Shown here piece after piece: positions 3 through 20,780 of a stretch of 64,000 bases of DNA. This DNA is from Alkalinema sp. FACHB-956 (GTDB lineage Bacteria > Cyanobacteriota > Cyanobacteriia > Leptolyngbyales > Leptolyngbyaceae), in assembly GCF_014697025.1 (NCBI RefSeq), contig NZ_JACJRC010000001.1, forward strand, positions 372,001 through 436,000, read 5' to 3'. Positions within the stretch are counted from its first letter, which is position 1. Every line of letters starts with the position of its first letter. The notes below the pieces were generated by a model. The model was given only the letters and a program-made list of their open reading frames with translations, had not been told where the DNA came from and did not search any database. The position numbers were made by a program, and so were the translations under genes.

Positions 3-2372
3 CAAGTCTTCACCGGACAGCCCAGCTATGCCTTTGATGCCACCGCTGCCAAGGCTCCCGAAGTGGAAAAAATGGGCGAAGTGCTTGTCCGGCGATCGAA
101 CTTTCTCCGCAGTGTCTCCCGTAAATGGGCGGGTCGTACCATTAGCAGTCTCGCTTTTTGTGCTCATGCCGCTCTCCATCTTCTCAAGCGTGAGCATCGC
201 GGTGACATTTTATTATTAACCAGTGAACCCCCCTTTCTCCAAGTTTTAGGATACTTGATCAAATTAGTATTTGGTGTTCCGTTTGCCACGTTAGTCTATG
301 ACCTCTACCCCGATGTCGCTGTTGAACTCGAAGTTTTATCTCAAAACCATTGGCTCATTCGTTTCTGGGATAGTGTTAACCGTCGGGTTTGGAATGCTGC
401 TGATAGCATTGTCGTTCCTTGCCAAACCATGAAGGATCGCATTGTTGCCAAGGTTCCAGAAGTTAGCGAAAAAATTATTGTTATCCATAACTGGGCTGAT
501 CCCACTTGGATTAAGCCCATGCTCAAAGCTCAAAATAGCTTTGCCCAGGAGCATCAACTGACGGAAAAATTTACCGTGCTCTATTCGGGCAACATGGGGC
601 GATGCCATGACATGGACACCATCATGGGGGCCGCAGTCGAACTGCAAAACGAACCGGTGGAATTCCTCTTTGTCGGCGGTGGCCCCAAACGGGAAGAGTG
701 CAAACAACAGGCGGCGGCCCTGGGCTTGCAAAACTGCCGCTTTTTACCCTACCAAGACAAAGCCAGATTGCCCGAATCCCTCACGGCCTGCGACCTCTCC
801 CTGGTGAGTGTGGACGTAGACATGGAAGGCTTAGTGGCCCCGAGTAAGTTCTACTCCGCGCTGTCCGCAGGTCGTCCCGTCGCCATCATTTGCGAAAAAC
901 ATTCCTACCTGCGATCGCTCGTCTCCGATGCCAACTGCGGTGCAGCGATTAGCAATGGCGACAGTAAAGGTTTGGCTGGGTTTATCCGGTATTTGATGAA
1001 AGATCCGGAAATGACGGAACGCATGGGCAAAGCCGGTCACCGCTACATCCAGGAATACTTCACACCCCATGAAATCAGCCAGCAATACTTCCGCATTCTG
1101 CGCCGTGCCGTACTGAACCACGCTGACCTCCACCAAGCTGTGGAACAAGAAGAATTTTGCATTCACTACCAACCCATGATGGAGATTGGGACGCGCAAGA
1201 TTCTGGGCGTAGAAGCCACGATTCGTTGGCAGCACCCGACGCGCGGTTTGATTTGTCCTGCGGAATTTGAATCCGCCGCCCACGAAACGGGATTAATTGT
1301 TCCCCTAGGCTGGTGGTTGCTCCAGGGCGCATGCCAACAACTACAAACCTGGCGTCAACAACACCCCAAACTGGATCTTCAGTTGAGCATTAACCTCAGC
1401 AGCCAGCAGTTTTTCCATCCTGAGTTAGTTTCCCGATTGGATGCCGCCCTCCAGCAGTACGATTTGCCCGGAAATGCGCTGATGCTGGAAATCAAAGACC
1501 AAGTGGTGATGGAAGATGCTGCGGCTACGACGGCAATTCTGTTGCAGTTGCAGACTCGGAACATTCAAGTTTGCATTGACAACTTCGGTGAAGGGTATTC
1601 CACGTTAGATTATCTACACCGTTTCCCAATTTCTGCGCTGAAAGTTGATAAATCCCTCGTCAGTCGCATCGGGGTTGATCCCAAAACCGTTAGCTTAATT
1701 GAAACGATCGTCATCCTGGCCAAGGATCTCAGAATGAAGGCGATCGCGGTAGGGGTCGAATCGACTGAGCAACTGCTGCGGCTGAAGGAAGTCGGACTTA
1801 AATATGCCCAGGGCTATCTCTTTGCCCCGAGCCAAGATGCTGAGCAAACCTCCACCTTCCTAGAAACCTGCGGCCAGCAGGAATTAGTTCATCCCCTACC
1901 TGCGGCCAATCTGCCCGTGCCTGTAACCAGTGCGAGTGATGAGACGAAACCCTTGGTGCTGATCGTGGATGACGATCGCTCCATGCGATCGATTCTCCGG
2001 ACGGCCATCAGTCAAGCGGGATACCGTACCGTGGAGGCTGAGAATGGCACCGCAGGACTGGCTAAATTCCACGAACTGAAGCCGGACTTGGTGTTGCTGG
2101 ATGCTCTCATGCCCGATATGGATGGCTTTGCCTGCTGCCACGCCATTCGGCAATCAATTCAAGCCCAAGCTGAAGCGGGTGGAATCTCTACGGCGGTTCG
2201 GTCAATCCCGATTCTGATGATTACTGCCCTGGATGATTCCGAATCGGTGGATCAAGCCTTTGCAGCGGGTGCCACCGACTACGTCACCAAACCGATTAAC
2301 TGGGCTGTCCTTCGGCAGCGTCTGCAACGCCTCTTACCCACGTCCCCAGCCAAAGCTACGGTCAATAATTAA
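3..2372 (+). CDS. Glycosyltransferase (GT4-like) - degenerate EAL - receiver fusion, 5' end outside window
   Basis: The frame is open from base 3, so the true start lies before the window; an internal GTG at 63 should not be taken as the start. The first ~1100 bases encode a GT4/WcaI-like glycosyltransferase (SGNMG and FVGGGP motifs, then EGLVAPSKFY and SAGRPV near the donor site), a family that builds surface polysaccharides. Bases ~1130-1870 encode an EAL domain of the cyclic-di-GMP phosphodiesterase fold. It keeps the first Glu (EATIRW), NLS, LKVD and QGY, but the DDFG pair reads DNFG and the AEGVE glutamate is Val, so hydrolysis is unlikely. Bases ~1945-2345 encode a receiver with VDDD, a phosphoacceptor in LLDALMPDMDG, ITA and TKP, all intact. 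A hairpin follows at 2464-2500. Inference: a glycosyltransferase regulated by nucleotide binding and phosphorylation. Confidence 0.9.
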   Translation, partial: QVFTGQPSYAFDATAAKAPEVEKMGEVLVRRSNFLRSVSRKWAGRTISSLAFCAHAALHLLKREHRGDILLLTSEPPFLQVLGYLIKLVFGVPFATLVYDLYPDVAVELEVLSQNHWLIRFWDSVNRRVWNAADSIVVPCQTMKDRIVAKVPEVSEKIIVIHNWADPTWIKPMLKAQNSFAQEHQLTEKFTVLYSGNMGRCHDMDTIMGAAVELQNEPVEFLFVGGGPKREECKQQAAALGLQNCRFLPYQDKARLPESLTACDLSLVSVDVDMEGLVAPSKFYSALSAGRPVAIICEKHSYLRSLVSDANCGAAISNGDSKGLAGFIRYLMKDPEMTERMGKAGHRYIQEYFTPHEISQQYFRILRRAVLNHADLHQAVEQEEFCIHYQPMMEIGTRKILGVEATIRWQHPTRGLICPAEFESAAHETGLIVPLGWWLLQGACQQLQTWRQQHPKLDLQLSINLSSQQFFHPELVSRLDAALQQYDLPGNALMLEIKDQVVMEDAAATTAILLQLQTRNIQVCIDNFGEGYSTLDYLHRFPISALKVDKSLVSRIGVDPKTVSLIETIVILAKDLRMKAIAVGVESTEQLLRLKEVGLKYAQGYLFAPSQDAEQTSTFLETCGQQELVHPLPAANLPVPVTSASDETKPLVLIVDDDRSMRSILRTAISQAGYRTVEAENGTAGLAKFHELKPDLVLLDALMPDMDGFACCHAIRQSIQAQAEAGGISTAVRSIPILMITALDDSESVDQAFAAGATDYVTKPINWAVLRQRLQRLLPTSPAKATVNN

Positions 2373-2802: not shown

Positions 2803-5301
2803 ATGGGCAAACGATCGGTCAAAGCGTCTGCAATCGGAATCGCCAAGGCTAAGCGAGCATTTGAACGCCGCGAGTGGACTCAAGAATATCTGGCGAGTGC
2901 TGTGGGATTGCAAACACGACAATCCATTTGGAAGTTCTTTTCCGGGCGTCCGATCGAACGTCATTTATTTATTGATATCTGTTTCCAATTAGATTTAGAT
3001 TGGCAAGAAATTGCTGAGTTGCCGCGCTTTGATGAAACCGAAGAAGATGGCAGCAATGCGCTGTCGAACCTGGAGCATGGGGCGCGTGCGATCGTGGAGG
3101 ATGCCCAGCCTGCGATGAACGCTACGATGACCTGGGAACAGCTGTGGAGCGTGGCGCAACACCGTCTCCACCAATCTGAACCGACGATCGCCCCTATGCC
3201 AACCCTGGCGAACAGCAGCTCGGAATTTTACATTGAGTTATTTCTTTCTTCCCAGGTGAAAGGCCAACGGTGGCTAGAGGTCAATGATTTTCAACCTAAC
3301 CGGGATTGGGATGCTGTACAACCCGCTGTTTCTAAATTGTTCAGCAATTCTGCACCCAACCCATCGGCATCCCTTGCCCTACCCACGACCCATCCCTTTC
3401 CAGGGTTTGCCTGCTCCAATACGATTCATACTGTCATTCCCGCCACGGGGCTTCCCGCCCAATCCCGTTGGCTGATCTATGGCCGTCCCGGTAGTGGCAA
3501 AACGACCCTGTTAAAATCTTTGGCGATCGCCGATCTGGCTCAAGGGGAACCGGGCGATCGACTACCCATTTTGTTACCTTTACATACCGTTCTTTCAACG
3601 GATGACTTCTCCTTTGAAACACTAATTCAACAACACTATTGTGAACTTTCAGTACAACAAAATCAGCAATGGTTAGCCGATGGCAAATTCCGATTACTCT
3701 TAGATGGCTTAGATGAATTACCCGCCGATCGTCGGGCTGGGGTGATGAATGCGCTGCAAGTCTTTATGGCGCAATATCCTAAGGTGGCGATCGTCCTGAC
3801 CTGTCGATCGGGATTGCGGGATGTGAATGCATCTGGATTTACGACCTTGGAACTGATGGATTGGACTGCGGAGCAAATCCGTTCCTTTGTCGTGACCTGG
3901 GCAGAATCTCAAGTTTATTACAATACCGATCGGGGCCAAACTTTTGTTGGCAACTTCTTAGCAGCCCTCTACCAGCCCCAGAATAAGCGTCTTTTAGATC
4001 TGGCTAAGACTCCACTGCTCCTGCAACGACTGTGCGAAATTTTCTGGGAGCGTCAAGCCTTTCCTAGTCGCTCATCACTGCTATGCCAAGAAGTGCTAGA
4101 ACTATTAGTCTGGAAACGGGATCAACAACGAGGAATCAGTCGCCAGCATCACGGTTATCACCTCACGATCGCTGAAGTTGTAGATCTGCTGGGACAAATT
4201 GCTTATAAATTCTTTGAAGACGGCCACTATCTCTTTGACAAGTCGGAAATTCTACCGATTCTAGCCACTTACCTAACTAACCATACGGAAGCCACTCGCC
4301 ATCGCGATGCAGAATCTCTCTGGTTTGCCAGTGAGTCATTACTGGAAGCGTTGATGGTGGACTATGGAATGCTGACGGAAGAAGCCCATTCTGTCTATGC
4401 CTTTTCTTACCTGACTGTGCAGGAATATTTGGTGGCCCGACGGTTTGCCACGCGATCGATTCTCCTATCGCCTGCCCCCCAAAATGCTGAACCGAGCGGT
4501 AAAGTCCTTGCTCCCATGACTCAGCCGCAATCTTCTCCCGACCAACAACCCTGGCTCCAGACCCTATCCCATCGTGTCTTGGAACCTCGCTGGCGCACAG
4601 TGATTGAACTGTTGATTGAATTATTGCCCCATCCCACCCCCCTGTTTACTTGGATGAAGCAATGCATTGACCAGATGGTACAAGATGATTTGGAACTGCA
4701 TCGCATTCTGCAATGGCTCGATCGTAAGGCGCAACCTTTTGCTAGCCAATACCATCCTGCGGCCCTACGCGCGTTCTATTACCTCAGCTTAGAAAATCTG
4801 GGCTTGGATCTTGCGTTTGCCTTAGATCCCCAACTGGCCTGCCACCTGTCCCCGGAACTCAAATTAGATTTAGATTTAATGCACCTATTCCACCAAGGGG
4901 AGCAATTGCTCAATCAACCCACCTTGGACAATGCCTTTTCTCTAGGCTTTTTAATGACTTCCTTGAGCGAAGGCACTGCAGCAGAAGCCATTGCGATGAG
5001 CTTTCGAGCCCAGTTGCCGGAGTTACTGGAAGCTGCTCAAAATCAGCAGTCCCTCGATCGTTGGTGCCGTCGAGCAGGGCGGGAATGGCTAAAGACTCTC
5101 CGCCAAATCAGTATTGAACAACGGGATTTGGGTTATGTTTGGAACTTGACTCCCGATCGCCAAGAGAAACTACAAACCTATTACTGGGCGAACTACTTCC
5201 TCGTGAATGGACTGCGGAAGCGGCATTCAGCCCATTCCATGGCCCAAAGTCCGATCGTGCAAGCCCTCATTGCTCCGATGAACCACCAAGTCGCCAACTA
5301 A
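2803..5301 (+). CDS. NACHT-family NTPase with N-terminal helix-turn-helix
   Basis: An 832-residue STAND-type NTPase. Residues ~15-75 look like a helix-turn-helix (EWTQEYLASAVGLQTRQSIWKF). Walker A GRPGSGKTT is at ~227-235 and Walker B RLLLDGLDELP at ~297-307; the acidic DGLDE form is typical of NACHT. An FSYLTVQEYLVARRF segment typical of NACHT helical regions follows at ~535, and the C-terminus carries the LTPDRQEKLQTYYWAN motif seen in large cyanobacterial NACHT proteins. The start has an AGGGG ribosome site 7-9 bases upstream. Such proteins are signal-sensing switches, and some bacterial NACHT proteins protect against phage. No effector domain is recognisable here, so a defence role is inference. 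It lies between two genes that share related receiver domains. Confidence 0.88.
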   Translation: MGKRSVKASAIGIAKAKRAFERREWTQEYLASAVGLQTRQSIWKFFSGRPIERHLFIDICFQLDLDWQEIAELPRFDETEEDGSNALSNLEHGARAIVEDAQPAMNATMTWEQLWSVAQHRLHQSEPTIAPMPTLANSSSEFYIELFLSSQVKGQRWLEVNDFQPNRDWDAVQPAVSKLFSNSAPNPSASLALPTTHPFPGFACSNTIHTVIPATGLPAQSRWLIYGRPGSGKTTLLKSLAIADLAQGEPGDRLPILLPLHTVLSTDDFSFETLIQQHYCELSVQQNQQWLADGKFRLLLDGLDELPADRRAGVMNALQVFMAQYPKVAIVLTCRSGLRDVNASGFTTLELMDWTAEQIRSFVVTWAESQVYYNTDRGQTFVGNFLAALYQPQNKRLLDLAKTPLLLQRLCEIFWERQAFPSRSSLLCQEVLELLVWKRDQQRGISRQHHGYHLTIAEVVDLLGQIAYKFFEDGHYLFDKSEILPILATYLTNHTEATRHRDAESLWFASESLLEALMVDYGMLTEEAHSVYAFSYLTVQEYLVARRFATRSILLSPAPQNAEPSGKVLAPMTQPQSSPDQQPWLQTLSHRVLEPRWRTVIELLIELLPHPTPLFTWMKQCIDQMVQDDLELHRILQWLDRKAQPFASQYHPAALRAFYYLSLENLGLDLAFALDPQLACHLSPELKLDLDLMHLFHQGEQLLNQPTLDNAFSLGFLMTSLSEGTAAEAIAMSFRAQLPELLEAAQNQQSLDRWCRRAGREWLKTLRQISIEQRDLGYVWNLTPDRQEKLQTYYWANYFLVNGLRKRHSAHSMAQSPIVQALIAPMNHQVAN

Positions 5302-5393
5302 GGCGATCCCTGCTCCCAGTCAATGCCCCGTTGGGATTTCCCATTCAATACTCAAGCTTGATCCTCTATATCATGATGCTAGGAAAGACTGTT

Positions 5394-5870
5394 ATGGATT
5401 CTAATAAACCAACCATTTTAGTAGTAGATGATGAACCCAATCTCCGCAGCATTCTGAATTGTGCCATTTCCCACAATGGCGATCGAGTGATTGAAGCACC
5501 CAATGGAGAAGCTTGTTTATTGATCTGCCAGCAACAACTTCCGGATTTAATTCTCATTGATGCAGTCATGCCTGATATGGATGGCTTCACCTGTTGTCAT
5601 ACGTTGAAAAAAACCTATGGAGAAACTTGTCCACCGTTGATTATGATTACGGCTCTGTCGAATGCAGAGTTCATCGATCGAGCCTTCAATGCAGGTATTA
5701 CAGACTATATTACAAAACCCATCCGCTGGCCCATCCTCCGCCATCGTATTGATACCGCTCTGGCAAATAACAGGCTCCAGAAAAAGCTAGATGAAGCCCA
5801 TTGTCGCATTGAATATTTAGAGCAAGAATTAGCCCATCAAGAGTTGTTAACGCGATCGGCTCCACTTTAA
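5394..5870 (+). CDS. Single-domain response regulator with C-terminal coiled coil
   Basis: A 158-residue receiver protein. The acidic pocket (VVDDE), phosphoacceptor (IDAVMPDMDGF), Thr (ITA) and Lys-Pro (TKP) are all present. Residues after ~120 form a charged heptad-like helix (LDEAHCRIEYLEQEL) likely to dimerise or bind a partner. There is no output domain. ATG 5394 was chosen because AGGAAAG sits 6 bases upstream; ATGs at 5373/5376 are in frame but poorer. The domain closely resembles the receiver of the fusion protein ending at 2372 (both have MPDMDGF.CCH and TKPI.W..LR.R), so the two are probably paralogues. It begins 92 bases after the NACHT gene, possibly in the same transcript. The partner kinase is not visible. 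Confidence 0.9.
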   Translation: MDSNKPTILVVDDEPNLRSILNCAISHNGDRVIEAPNGEACLLICQQQLPDLILIDAVMPDMDGFTCCHTLKKTYGETCPPLIMITALSNAEFIDRAFNAGITDYITKPIRWPILRHRIDTALANNRLQKKLDEAHCRIEYLEQELAHQELLTRSAPL

Positions 5871-19016: not shown

Positions 19017-20780
19017 ATGGCACATTCTTCTCGACAACCCGGTTCGCCCTGTCCACCTTCCTCAGTCACCCATGCCAAACCCCGATCGCTCCACCGATCC
19101 AGGCAATGGCTTAGGTCTGTTGGCTTCAGAATGCTGAGCTTGGCACTTTGTACTGCCATTACCTCAGTTTGTCTGCACCTAGGATGGCCGATCGGGGCGT
19201 TATTATCTGGGCCAGTATTTTCGTCTGGGCAAATATTTTCTCCAGTGGCTCAAGCTCAAACGGCAGGAGTTTTGCAACCTCCTTTATCTACGCGCAAAAG
19301 TGAGATTGTTGATGCCCAAGGACGCACTGTTCTATTGCGAGGCGTCAATTGGTTTGGCCTGGAAACCGAAACCCATGCCCCCCACGGACTTTGGGAGCGA
19401 GATTACGTTGATGTGGTTGCCCAAATCAAGCAAATGGGTTACAACGTGATTCGTTTGCCCTATTCCCTGGCTAGCTTAAAATCTCAAACCCTCTCGGGGA
19501 TTAACTTTGATCTGCCCGGAAATGCCACTTTCAAGAACAAAACACCTTTGCAAGTGATGGATGCAGTGGTGCAAGAGGCCGGTCGTCAGGGGCTCTTTGT
19601 GATACTAGATAGCCATCGCTTAAATGACCAACGAATTCCTGAACTCTGGTACGGTGATGGCTTTACAGAAGCCGACTGGGTGAATACCTGGACAATGCTG
19701 GCGGAGCGTTACAAAAATCAGCCAAATGTGATCGGGGCTGACTTGAAAAATGAACCCCACGGGAAAGCCAGTTGGGGAACGGGCGATCGGGCAACGGATT
19801 GGCGACTGGCCGCCGAGCGGGCGGGTAATGCCATTCTGAAGGTAAATCGCAACTGGCTGATTATCGTAGAAGGCGTTGAAAATAACGTTCCCGGTCAGAA
19901 GCTGAAACATTGGATGGGCGGAAACCTAGAAGGGGTCGATCGCTTCCCAGTTCGCTTATCAGTGCCGAATCGGGTTGTGTACTCGCCCCACGAATATGGC
20001 CCCGGCGTCTTTGCCCAACCCTGGTTTGCCGACAAGCGCTTTCCCAATAACTTAGTCTCCCGTTGGAATCAAGGATTCTACTACATTGCCCAGCGAGGTA
20101 TCGCGCCCATTTGGGTGGGGGAATTTGGGGGTCGCCAAACCGACAACCAATCCAAAGAAGGCATTTGGCAGCAGCGATTTGTGCAATTTCTGCAAACCAA
20201 TCGTTTAGGGTTTGCCTACTGGAGTTTCAATCCTAATAGTGGCGATACTGGTGGTCTACTGCTAGATGACTGGAAAACTGTGGATCGCAATAAACAAAAA
20301 TTGCTCAGCGTCCTGTTACCGACCTTAACAATGGCCCCTGTTGGTGGTCAGTCGCCCATACCTTCTCCAGTCCCCACGCCGACCCCAACCTCCCCATCAC
20401 AGCCAGGTCCCCAGCCAACGCCCTCGGTGTCGCCTAGCCCGGTGTTGAGTTCCCCCCGATCGCCCAATTTAGAGACCCCATTGCAAGTCCAAGTCCAAAA
20501 ACAATCTGATTGGGAAACGGGGTTTTGTACCAGGATTCAAGTCAGCAATCCCACTCAGCAAGCGATTTCCAACTGGCTTCTGCGCTTTAACATGGTTGAT
20601 GCCACTATCACACAGTCTTGGAATGGCTCCTTCACAGTCCAAAGCGCAGGGAATTATCAAGTGCAACCTGCTGAATGGGGCAAGACCTTAACCCCTCGCC
20701 AAACGATCGACCTGGGATTTTGTGCCGACAAGAAAGGCCCGAATCCCCAACCACGAAACTTTCAGGCAGTCAAAACCTGA
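19017..20780 (+). CDS. Secreted GH5 endoglucanase-like enzyme with CBM2
   Basis: A 587-residue protein. An N-terminal basic region and hydrophobic segment end near SPVAQAQT (~80), a likely signal cleavage site; the precursor leader is long, so a later start is possible. The glycoside hydrolase family 5 domain (~95-440) has NVIRLPYS, the acid/base Glu246 in LKNEPHG, PHEYGPG and the nucleophile Glu369 in WVGEFGG. A Pro/Ser/Thr linker (~445-485) leads to a C-terminal family 2 carbohydrate-binding module (~490-580: WETGFCTRIQVSN, ISNWLLRFNM, WNGSF, DLGFCADK). This architecture degrades or remodels cellulose or related beta-glucans outside the cell. No cellulose synthase lies in the window. Confidence 0.9.
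   Translation: MAHSSRQPGSPCPPSSVTHAKPRSLHRSRQWLRSVGFRMLSLALCTAITSVCLHLGWPIGALLSGPVFSSGQIFSPVAQAQTAGVLQPPLSTRKSEIVDAQGRTVLLRGVNWFGLETETHAPHGLWERDYVDVVAQIKQMGYNVIRLPYSLASLKSQTLSGINFDLPGNATFKNKTPLQVMDAVVQEAGRQGLFVILDSHRLNDQRIPELWYGDGFTEADWVNTWTMLAERYKNQPNVIGADLKNEPHGKASWGTGDRATDWRLAAERAGNAILKVNRNWLIIVEGVENNVPGQKLKHWMGGNLEGVDRFPVRLSVPNRVVYSPHEYGPGVFAQPWFADKRFPNNLVSRWNQGFYYIAQRGIAPIWVGEFGGRQTDNQSKEGIWQQRFVQFLQTNRLGFAYWSFNPNSGDTGGLLLDDWKTVDRNKQKLLSVLLPTLTMAPVGGQSPIPSPVPTPTPTSPSQPGPQPTPSVSPSPVLSSPRSPNLETPLQVQVQKQSDWETGFCTRIQVSNPTQQAISNWLLRFNMVDATITQSWNGSFTVQSAGNYQVQPAEWGKTLTPRQTIDLGFCADKKGPNPQPRNFQAVKT

Follow-up and report, generated by a model that had tools for sequence, protein, structure and literature searches.

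A single gene at the left edge of the window (the whole stretch of 64,000 nucleotides that was analysed, G000:C1:372001-436000) joins a GT4-type glycosyltransferase to a degenerate EAL domain and a receiver (REC). This fusion is conserved in 17 of the 390 genomes sampled from the class, and the metal-2 ligand set of the EAL domain is incomplete in every one of them. Of the readings considered below, we think it probable that c-di-GMP controls the protein, a glycosyltransferase of polysaccharide assembly, by way of an EAL domain that does not hydrolyse it, and that a phosphorelay provides a further input, ligand binding and allostery being inferred.

In the open reading frame analysis, the frame was uninterrupted from position 3 to 2372 (+) and ran off the left edge of the window. 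Upon addition of the upstream DNA, the full gene (G000:C1:371814-374372, or L011:15814-18372) was found to start with an ATG 187 bases upstream of the window, codons 1-63 preceding it, and to encode 852 residues. The sequence-only reading of this DNA had proposed that a glycosyltransferase, an EAL domain and a receiver are joined in one frame; Pfam bore this out (Glyco_transf_4/Glycos_transf_1, EAL at 8.9e-66 and Response_reg at 6.2e-26) in the order GT4 (WcaI-like), EAL, REC, with only the coordinates in need of extension upstream of the window. It had further described the loss of two catalytic acids from the EAL domain and a full set of phosphorylation residues in the receiver. Both descriptions held: the sequence reads IDNFG at N590 and AVGVE at V646, and the motif table lists the phospho-Asp D763, the acidic pair, Thr804 and Lys826 [Table 1]. 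An additional change that had escaped that reading affects the EAL motif, which is E-A-T (L469T). Across the family, the phospho-Asp is present in 16 of the 17 receivers, the exception being G109 (L054:1462-4014), where the equivalent of D763 is Glu and the acidic pair includes an Asn, possibly making for a locked-on receiver.

Table 1. Features in the window (positions in the window; residues of the 852-residue protein) and named carriers of the fusion, the latter taken from GTDB contigs.
Feature	Position or identifier	Strand	Evidence or remark
GT4 glycosyltransferase domain, residues 64-430	3..1103	+	Pfam PF13439/PF13579/PF00534; PRK10307 partial score; GT-B fold
Degenerate EAL domain, residues 431-690	1104..1883	+	Pfam PF00563, 8.9e-66; pLDDT mostly >90; Z ~35
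E467, EAL motif, metal-1 ligand	1212..1214	+	Alignment; same in 17/17
D589-N590, DDFG changed to DNFG, metal-2 Asp gone	1578..1583 (N590 = 1581-1583)	+	Translation, alignment
V646, Val for first Glu of EGVE (metal-2 ligand)	1749..1751	+	Translation, alignment
EAL-REC linker, weakly conserved, low confidence	1884..1946	+	pLDDT <50 at 696-707; 28% mean identity
Receiver, D763 (2100-2102), T804 and K826 intact	1947..2348	+	Pfam PF00072, motif table
Stand-alone receiver, 50% identical to fused receiver	5139..5870	+	Relatives adjoin fused gene in L070, L072, L155
Fused gene, Elainella saxicola E1	L070 = G167		
Fused gene, Alkalinema sp. RU_4_3	L071 = G010		
Fused gene, Oscillatoriales Centralia_MAG_596	L072 = G284		
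Fused gene, NC_groundwater_1537	L107 = G106		
Fused gene, Leptolyngbyaceae CRU_2_3	L141 = G303		Split over frames in assembly

Whether the EAL domain still has a ligand to bind was approached through its conservation. Its dN/dS ratios (0.07-0.14) are similar to those of the glycosyltransferase and receiver in the same pairs and indicate strong purifying selection on the domain. It is nonetheless the part that drifts fastest, with a mean identity of 49% vs 66% for the glycosyltransferase and 58% for the receiver. Among 39 EAL columns that are invariant or nearly so in 19 control EAL domains from the same and related genomes, pocket columns (Q453, L469, R471, P482, E649, Q666 and G667, chosen on the basis of published work and of what is generally known about EAL structures) had on average been lost from 1.3 of the 17 members, catalytic columns from 7.2 and other columns from 6.3; rank tests gave p values of 0.002 and 0.013, which are optimistic as relatedness was ignored. 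In the absence of binding data, this pattern is what an EAL domain reduced to binding would be expected to show. Structure prediction, one of the checks suggested for the EAL pocket in the sequence-only reading, yielded an EAL half that superposes on EAL-c-di-GMP complexes (Z ~35, rmsd 1.4-1.9 Å).

The pocket is not untouched. In the window protein, Q453, E467, R471, P482, Q666 and G667 are retained and L469 and E646 are changed, the latter, now Val, occupying, as judged by spacing, the position of FimX E653, which contacts c-di-GMP (PMC7288161). R471 is gone in G167, G109 and G187, the last two of which have also lost Q666. EAL domains of the YcgF and RflP/YdiV types are known to act as dimerisation or docking modules. 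The fast drift of the fused EAL domain, the fact that the window's subclade lacks L469 and E646, and the loss of R471 or Q666 in some members would all suit a domain of that kind, which would bind no nucleotide and leave control of the glycosyltransferase to phosphorylation of the receiver or to a partner protein alone. We regard this alternative as unlikely but alive. Speaking against it are the identity of Q453, E467, P482 and G667 in all 17 members, the better retention of pocket columns than of other control-invariant columns, and the presence in two fused loci of a gene for a PAS/GAF-GGDEF-EAL protein amid the polysaccharide genes, one in G309 (L153:1368-6722), which has the GGDEF, EAL, DDFG and EGVE motifs, and a related one in G333 (L170:10068-14999).

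A further argument against a mere docking module comes from a second fusion on the same glycosyltransferase family. G181 (L149:1167-3035, 623 aa) and G322 (L150:1944-3725, 594 aa) encode the same GT4 without an EAL domain and with long C-terminal tails, in which two MshE-type c-di-GMP-binding stretches take the place of EAL-REC. Pfam detected no c-di-GMP domain in these tails, but NCBIfam did: model NF053729 ('cyclic di-GMP-binding domain-containing protein, MshE-related') scored 58.6 bits in G181 and 75.7 bits in G322 against a curated cut-off of 38. A low-confidence model of the tail returned only weak structure matches, with PilF/MshE first. The MshE-type fusions fell outside the EAL-fused clade in the tree, a sister relationship not being excluded (AU p 0.485). 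MshEN domains fused to glycosyltransferases have been noted before (PMC5013675), and NfrB is a proven case (PMC8669469). The occurrence of two unrelated types of predicted c-di-GMP receptor at the same end of one glycosyltransferase family is the strongest of the indirect evidence for c-di-GMP control. The selective retention of the binding frame and this parallel fusion raise the likelihood of nucleotide binding without hydrolysis, binding data being absent.

The catalytic residues were compared with those of PA3825, in which metal 1 is held by Glu39, Asn98, Asp130 and Asp160, and metal 2 by Asp161 and Asp183 plus Glu217 in the calcium form (PMC5301497). By alignment, the equivalents in the window protein are E467, N527, E559 and D589 for metal 1, and N590, D612 and V646 for metal 2; metal site 1 is thus intact, K610 is also present, and two metal-2 ligands are gone. 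A metal-2 ligand (D590 and/or E646) is missing in all 17 members, in ways that differ between lineages: 14 have N or G at D590, and the remaining three (G040, G309 and G333) have T or M at E646. The complete set of E, N, E/D, D, D, K and E was found in none of the 17, vs 18 of the 19 control EALs, contrary to the possibility, raised by the sequence-only reading against itself, that the active site might be restored in close homologues. Parsimony on the tree required at least four changes at D590 and six at E646. Hydrolysis thus appears to have been given up repeatedly, which suggests, as far as residues alone can tell, that the fusion could do without it. That the domain might instead be a slow or conditional phosphodiesterase, lowering local c-di-GMP during polysaccharide synthesis, draws some support from the metal-1 ligands and K610 of the window protein and from the retention of both Asp of DDFG in G040, G309 and G333. 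We nevertheless find it improbable, since every member lacks a metal-2 ligand, K610 is replaced by Asp or Glu in six of them, and both M1 and M2 metals are described as needed to activate the nucleophile (PMC5301497).

The fusion was searched for in 58 relatives and then in the 390 genomes of the class, where its 16 carriers beyond the window's own genome brought the family to five families of organisms (f1, f7, f13, f24 and f26) and 11 genera; the GT4-EAL-REC order thus recurs as the sequence-only reading had hoped. In fifteen of these further genomes the frame is unbroken and the architecture and junction are unchanged, at 50-67% identity. These copies and the low dN/dS in all three domains virtually rule out a chance product, an assembly error or a decaying gene, and with them the unique fusion caused by a sequencing error that the sequence-only reading had named as a way in which it could fail, even if the assembly of G303 has its copy split over frames. 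The fused glycosyltransferases form a single clade (SH-aLRT 99 in the quick version of the tree), which was recovered in a second tree, and the fused EAL domains form another (SH-aLRT 100). We therefore take a single fusion event, later spread or lost, as established. Whether the receiver arose by duplication of the neighbouring one was left unresolved by the tree.

No fusion was seen outside Cyanobacteriota in the collection scan, and a phylum sample of 386 genomes held just two carriers, both already known. The glycosyltransferase occurs alone, mostly as a protein of 430-500 aa, in more than 70 other cyanobacterial genomes, some of which have it together with a fused paralogue. In about 75 loci of the stand-alone GT4, inspected over flanks of 1.5 to 8 kb, no close relative of the fused EAL domain or receiver was found that would make an EAL-REC gene beside the glycosyltransferase, a split version of the fusion; two such loci (L097 and L100) hold three unrelated EAL genes, intact or near-intact. 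Matches in L021 and L024 that seemed to extend through stop codons towards an EAL domain were discarded, being tails of 30-51 aa without EAL.

The best model for the glycosyltransferase half was PRK10307 (WcaI family), at 141.7 bits below its NCBIfam cut-off of 276; TIGR04007 (62.8 bits, cut-off 800) was also below. The domain is a relative of WcaI and is not classed as WcaI itself. The Glycos_transf_1 and Glyco_trans_4-like domains exceeded Pfam cut-offs, and the AlphaFold model (46-row alignment; mean pLDDT 88.6, pTM 0.68) has a GT-B fold in this half, with matches to GT-B enzymes including Anabaena HepE (Z 34) and MshA/SPS (Z 38). The N-terminus is disordered in the model and the EAL-REC linker loose at 696-707; given the pTM, the relative placement of the domains is unreliable and was left uninterpreted. 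HepE and the WcaI-family enzymes are likewise GT4 proteins of GT-B fold involved in extracellular polysaccharide biosynthesis but have no regulatory domain.

In the reading that we favour, control by c-di-GMP through a non-hydrolysing EAL domain, the cytoplasmic GT4 would add a sugar, the specificity for which is inferred only, during assembly of an exopolysaccharide associated with cyanoexosortase A, the acceptor being a lipid-linked repeat unit or the chain under elongation. The EAL domain, predicted to be unable to form a two-metal centre, would not hydrolyse c-di-GMP; on the view that its pocket still serves, changes at L469 and E646 notwithstanding, it would act as a receptor that holds the ligand uncut. 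Occupancy may be relayed to the glycosyltransferase through the EAL dimer/compound-helix region, as the EAL dimer interface couples ligand and metal state to the partner domain in BlrP1, a role also suggested for it in inactive EALs (PMC3989770). Phosphorylation of the terminal receiver would provide a second input, determining together with the ligand how active the glycosyltransferase is or how it assembles. The direction of control is likewise an inference; BcsA and NfrB, taken as analogues, make activation a better guess than inhibition. That these proteins make up a two-input enzyme class not described before, a GT4 gated directly by c-di-GMP via a non-hydrolysing EAL domain and by a phosphorelay via the receiver, and that other cyanobacteria have wired the same GT4 through MshE-type domains, is a broader generalization which we offer tentatively, as something short of an even bet.

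Direct control of glycosyltransferases by c-di-GMP is known to operate via PilZ, MshEN and PgaCD-type sites. The closest functional precedent is NfrB of E. coli, a GT2-MshEN protein whose C-terminal c-di-GMP-binding domain switches exopolysaccharide synthesis with a local diguanylate cyclase as partner (PMC8669469); NfrB is, however, a processive membrane GT2, whereas the window protein is a soluble-looking GT4 with a degenerate EAL domain and a receiver. The GT2-PilZ cellulose synthases BcsA and Tll0007, the latter cyanobacterial (PMC10519070), also have a c-di-GMP receptor domain at the glycosyltransferase C-terminus, but it is PilZ rather than EAL, the synthase is processive and there is no receiver. 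FimX, LapD and TipF use an EAL domain as c-di-GMP receptor, the metal ligands being gone and the ligand pocket retained in FimX and LapD (PMC7288161, PMC10519070). FimX has a degenerate EAL motif, whereas E467 is invariant in the fused family. To our knowledge, the chain of none of the three includes a glycosyltransferase or other such enzyme. Response regulators of the RocR/PvrR type combine receiver and EAL in a single chain, but with the receiver N-terminal, an active phosphodiesterase and no glycosyltransferase. Neither the GT-EAL-REC combination nor EAL-mediated c-di-GMP control of a glycosyltransferase was found in the open-access literature searched; within that scope, the parts and the principle are already known and the combination appears to be undescribed. 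Were the proposal true, a hydrolase would have been recast to serve a biosynthetic enzyme as its allosteric domain, catalysis having been lost several times independently at points that a tree can locate, and c-di-GMP and two-component signalling would be joined in a single polypeptide. By inference, the enzyme probably reads the 'settle down' messenger directly.

At the window's own locus, the genes upstream on the same strand encode an ElyC-like protein, a WcaF-family acetyltransferase (NF007797 above cut-off) and a DUF4114 protein, and divergent from these lie HpsJ_like_A, cyanoexosortase A (crtA) and a crtA-associated protein; HpsJ_like_A and the associated protein passed their cut-offs (models TIGR04153 and NF050013), and TIGR03763 (cyanoexosortase A) was just below (140.2 vs 150). 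This order recurs in most fused loci, with crtA or HpsJ in 11 of 17 and some gene of the cluster in 15 of 17. The DUF4114-type protein adjoining the fused gene ends in VPFEx-TM-Arg, a PFE-CTERM signal; PFE-CTERM proteins were above the NCBIfam cut-off in L070, L107 and L151, and the candidate of the window's genome below it (13.5 vs 24 bits). From this cyanoexosortase-A/PFE-CTERM setting, the glycosyltransferase very probably serves an exopolysaccharide, and the fused family offers a concrete regulatory entry point to such systems in cyanobacteria. For cyanoexosortase B, a link to biofilm as well as to hormogonium polysaccharide has been described in N. punctiforme (PMC12188702). The loci have a variable signalling slot, between HpsJ and the glycosyltransferase or directly after the latter. 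PAS/GAF-HK-REC-HPt kinases adjoin the fused gene in four of them (L070:10913-14713, L072:7911-10187, L107:548-4426 and L155:11407-15363); together with the GGDEF-EAL proteins and stand-alone receivers that also occupy this slot, they are plausible sources of phosphate or c-di-GMP for the fused protein. The window's own locus has the stand-alone receiver only, with neither a hybrid kinase nor a GGDEF-EAL neighbour.

Other genes of the neighbourhood were recorded in passing. A NACHT + NCH2 protein, possibly an NLR-like defence gene, is encoded 430 bases downstream of the fused gene (window 2803-5301, +), and Elainella encodes a homologue downstream of its own fused gene (L070:15919-18444). Upstream of the exosortase genes, a tandem pair resembling A-type flavoproteins (metallo-beta-lactamase/flavodoxin type) was called by eye from the translation (L011:6456-10142). 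Further into the window, a GH5 cellulase with a CBM2 cellulose-binding domain is encoded at 19017-20780 (+).
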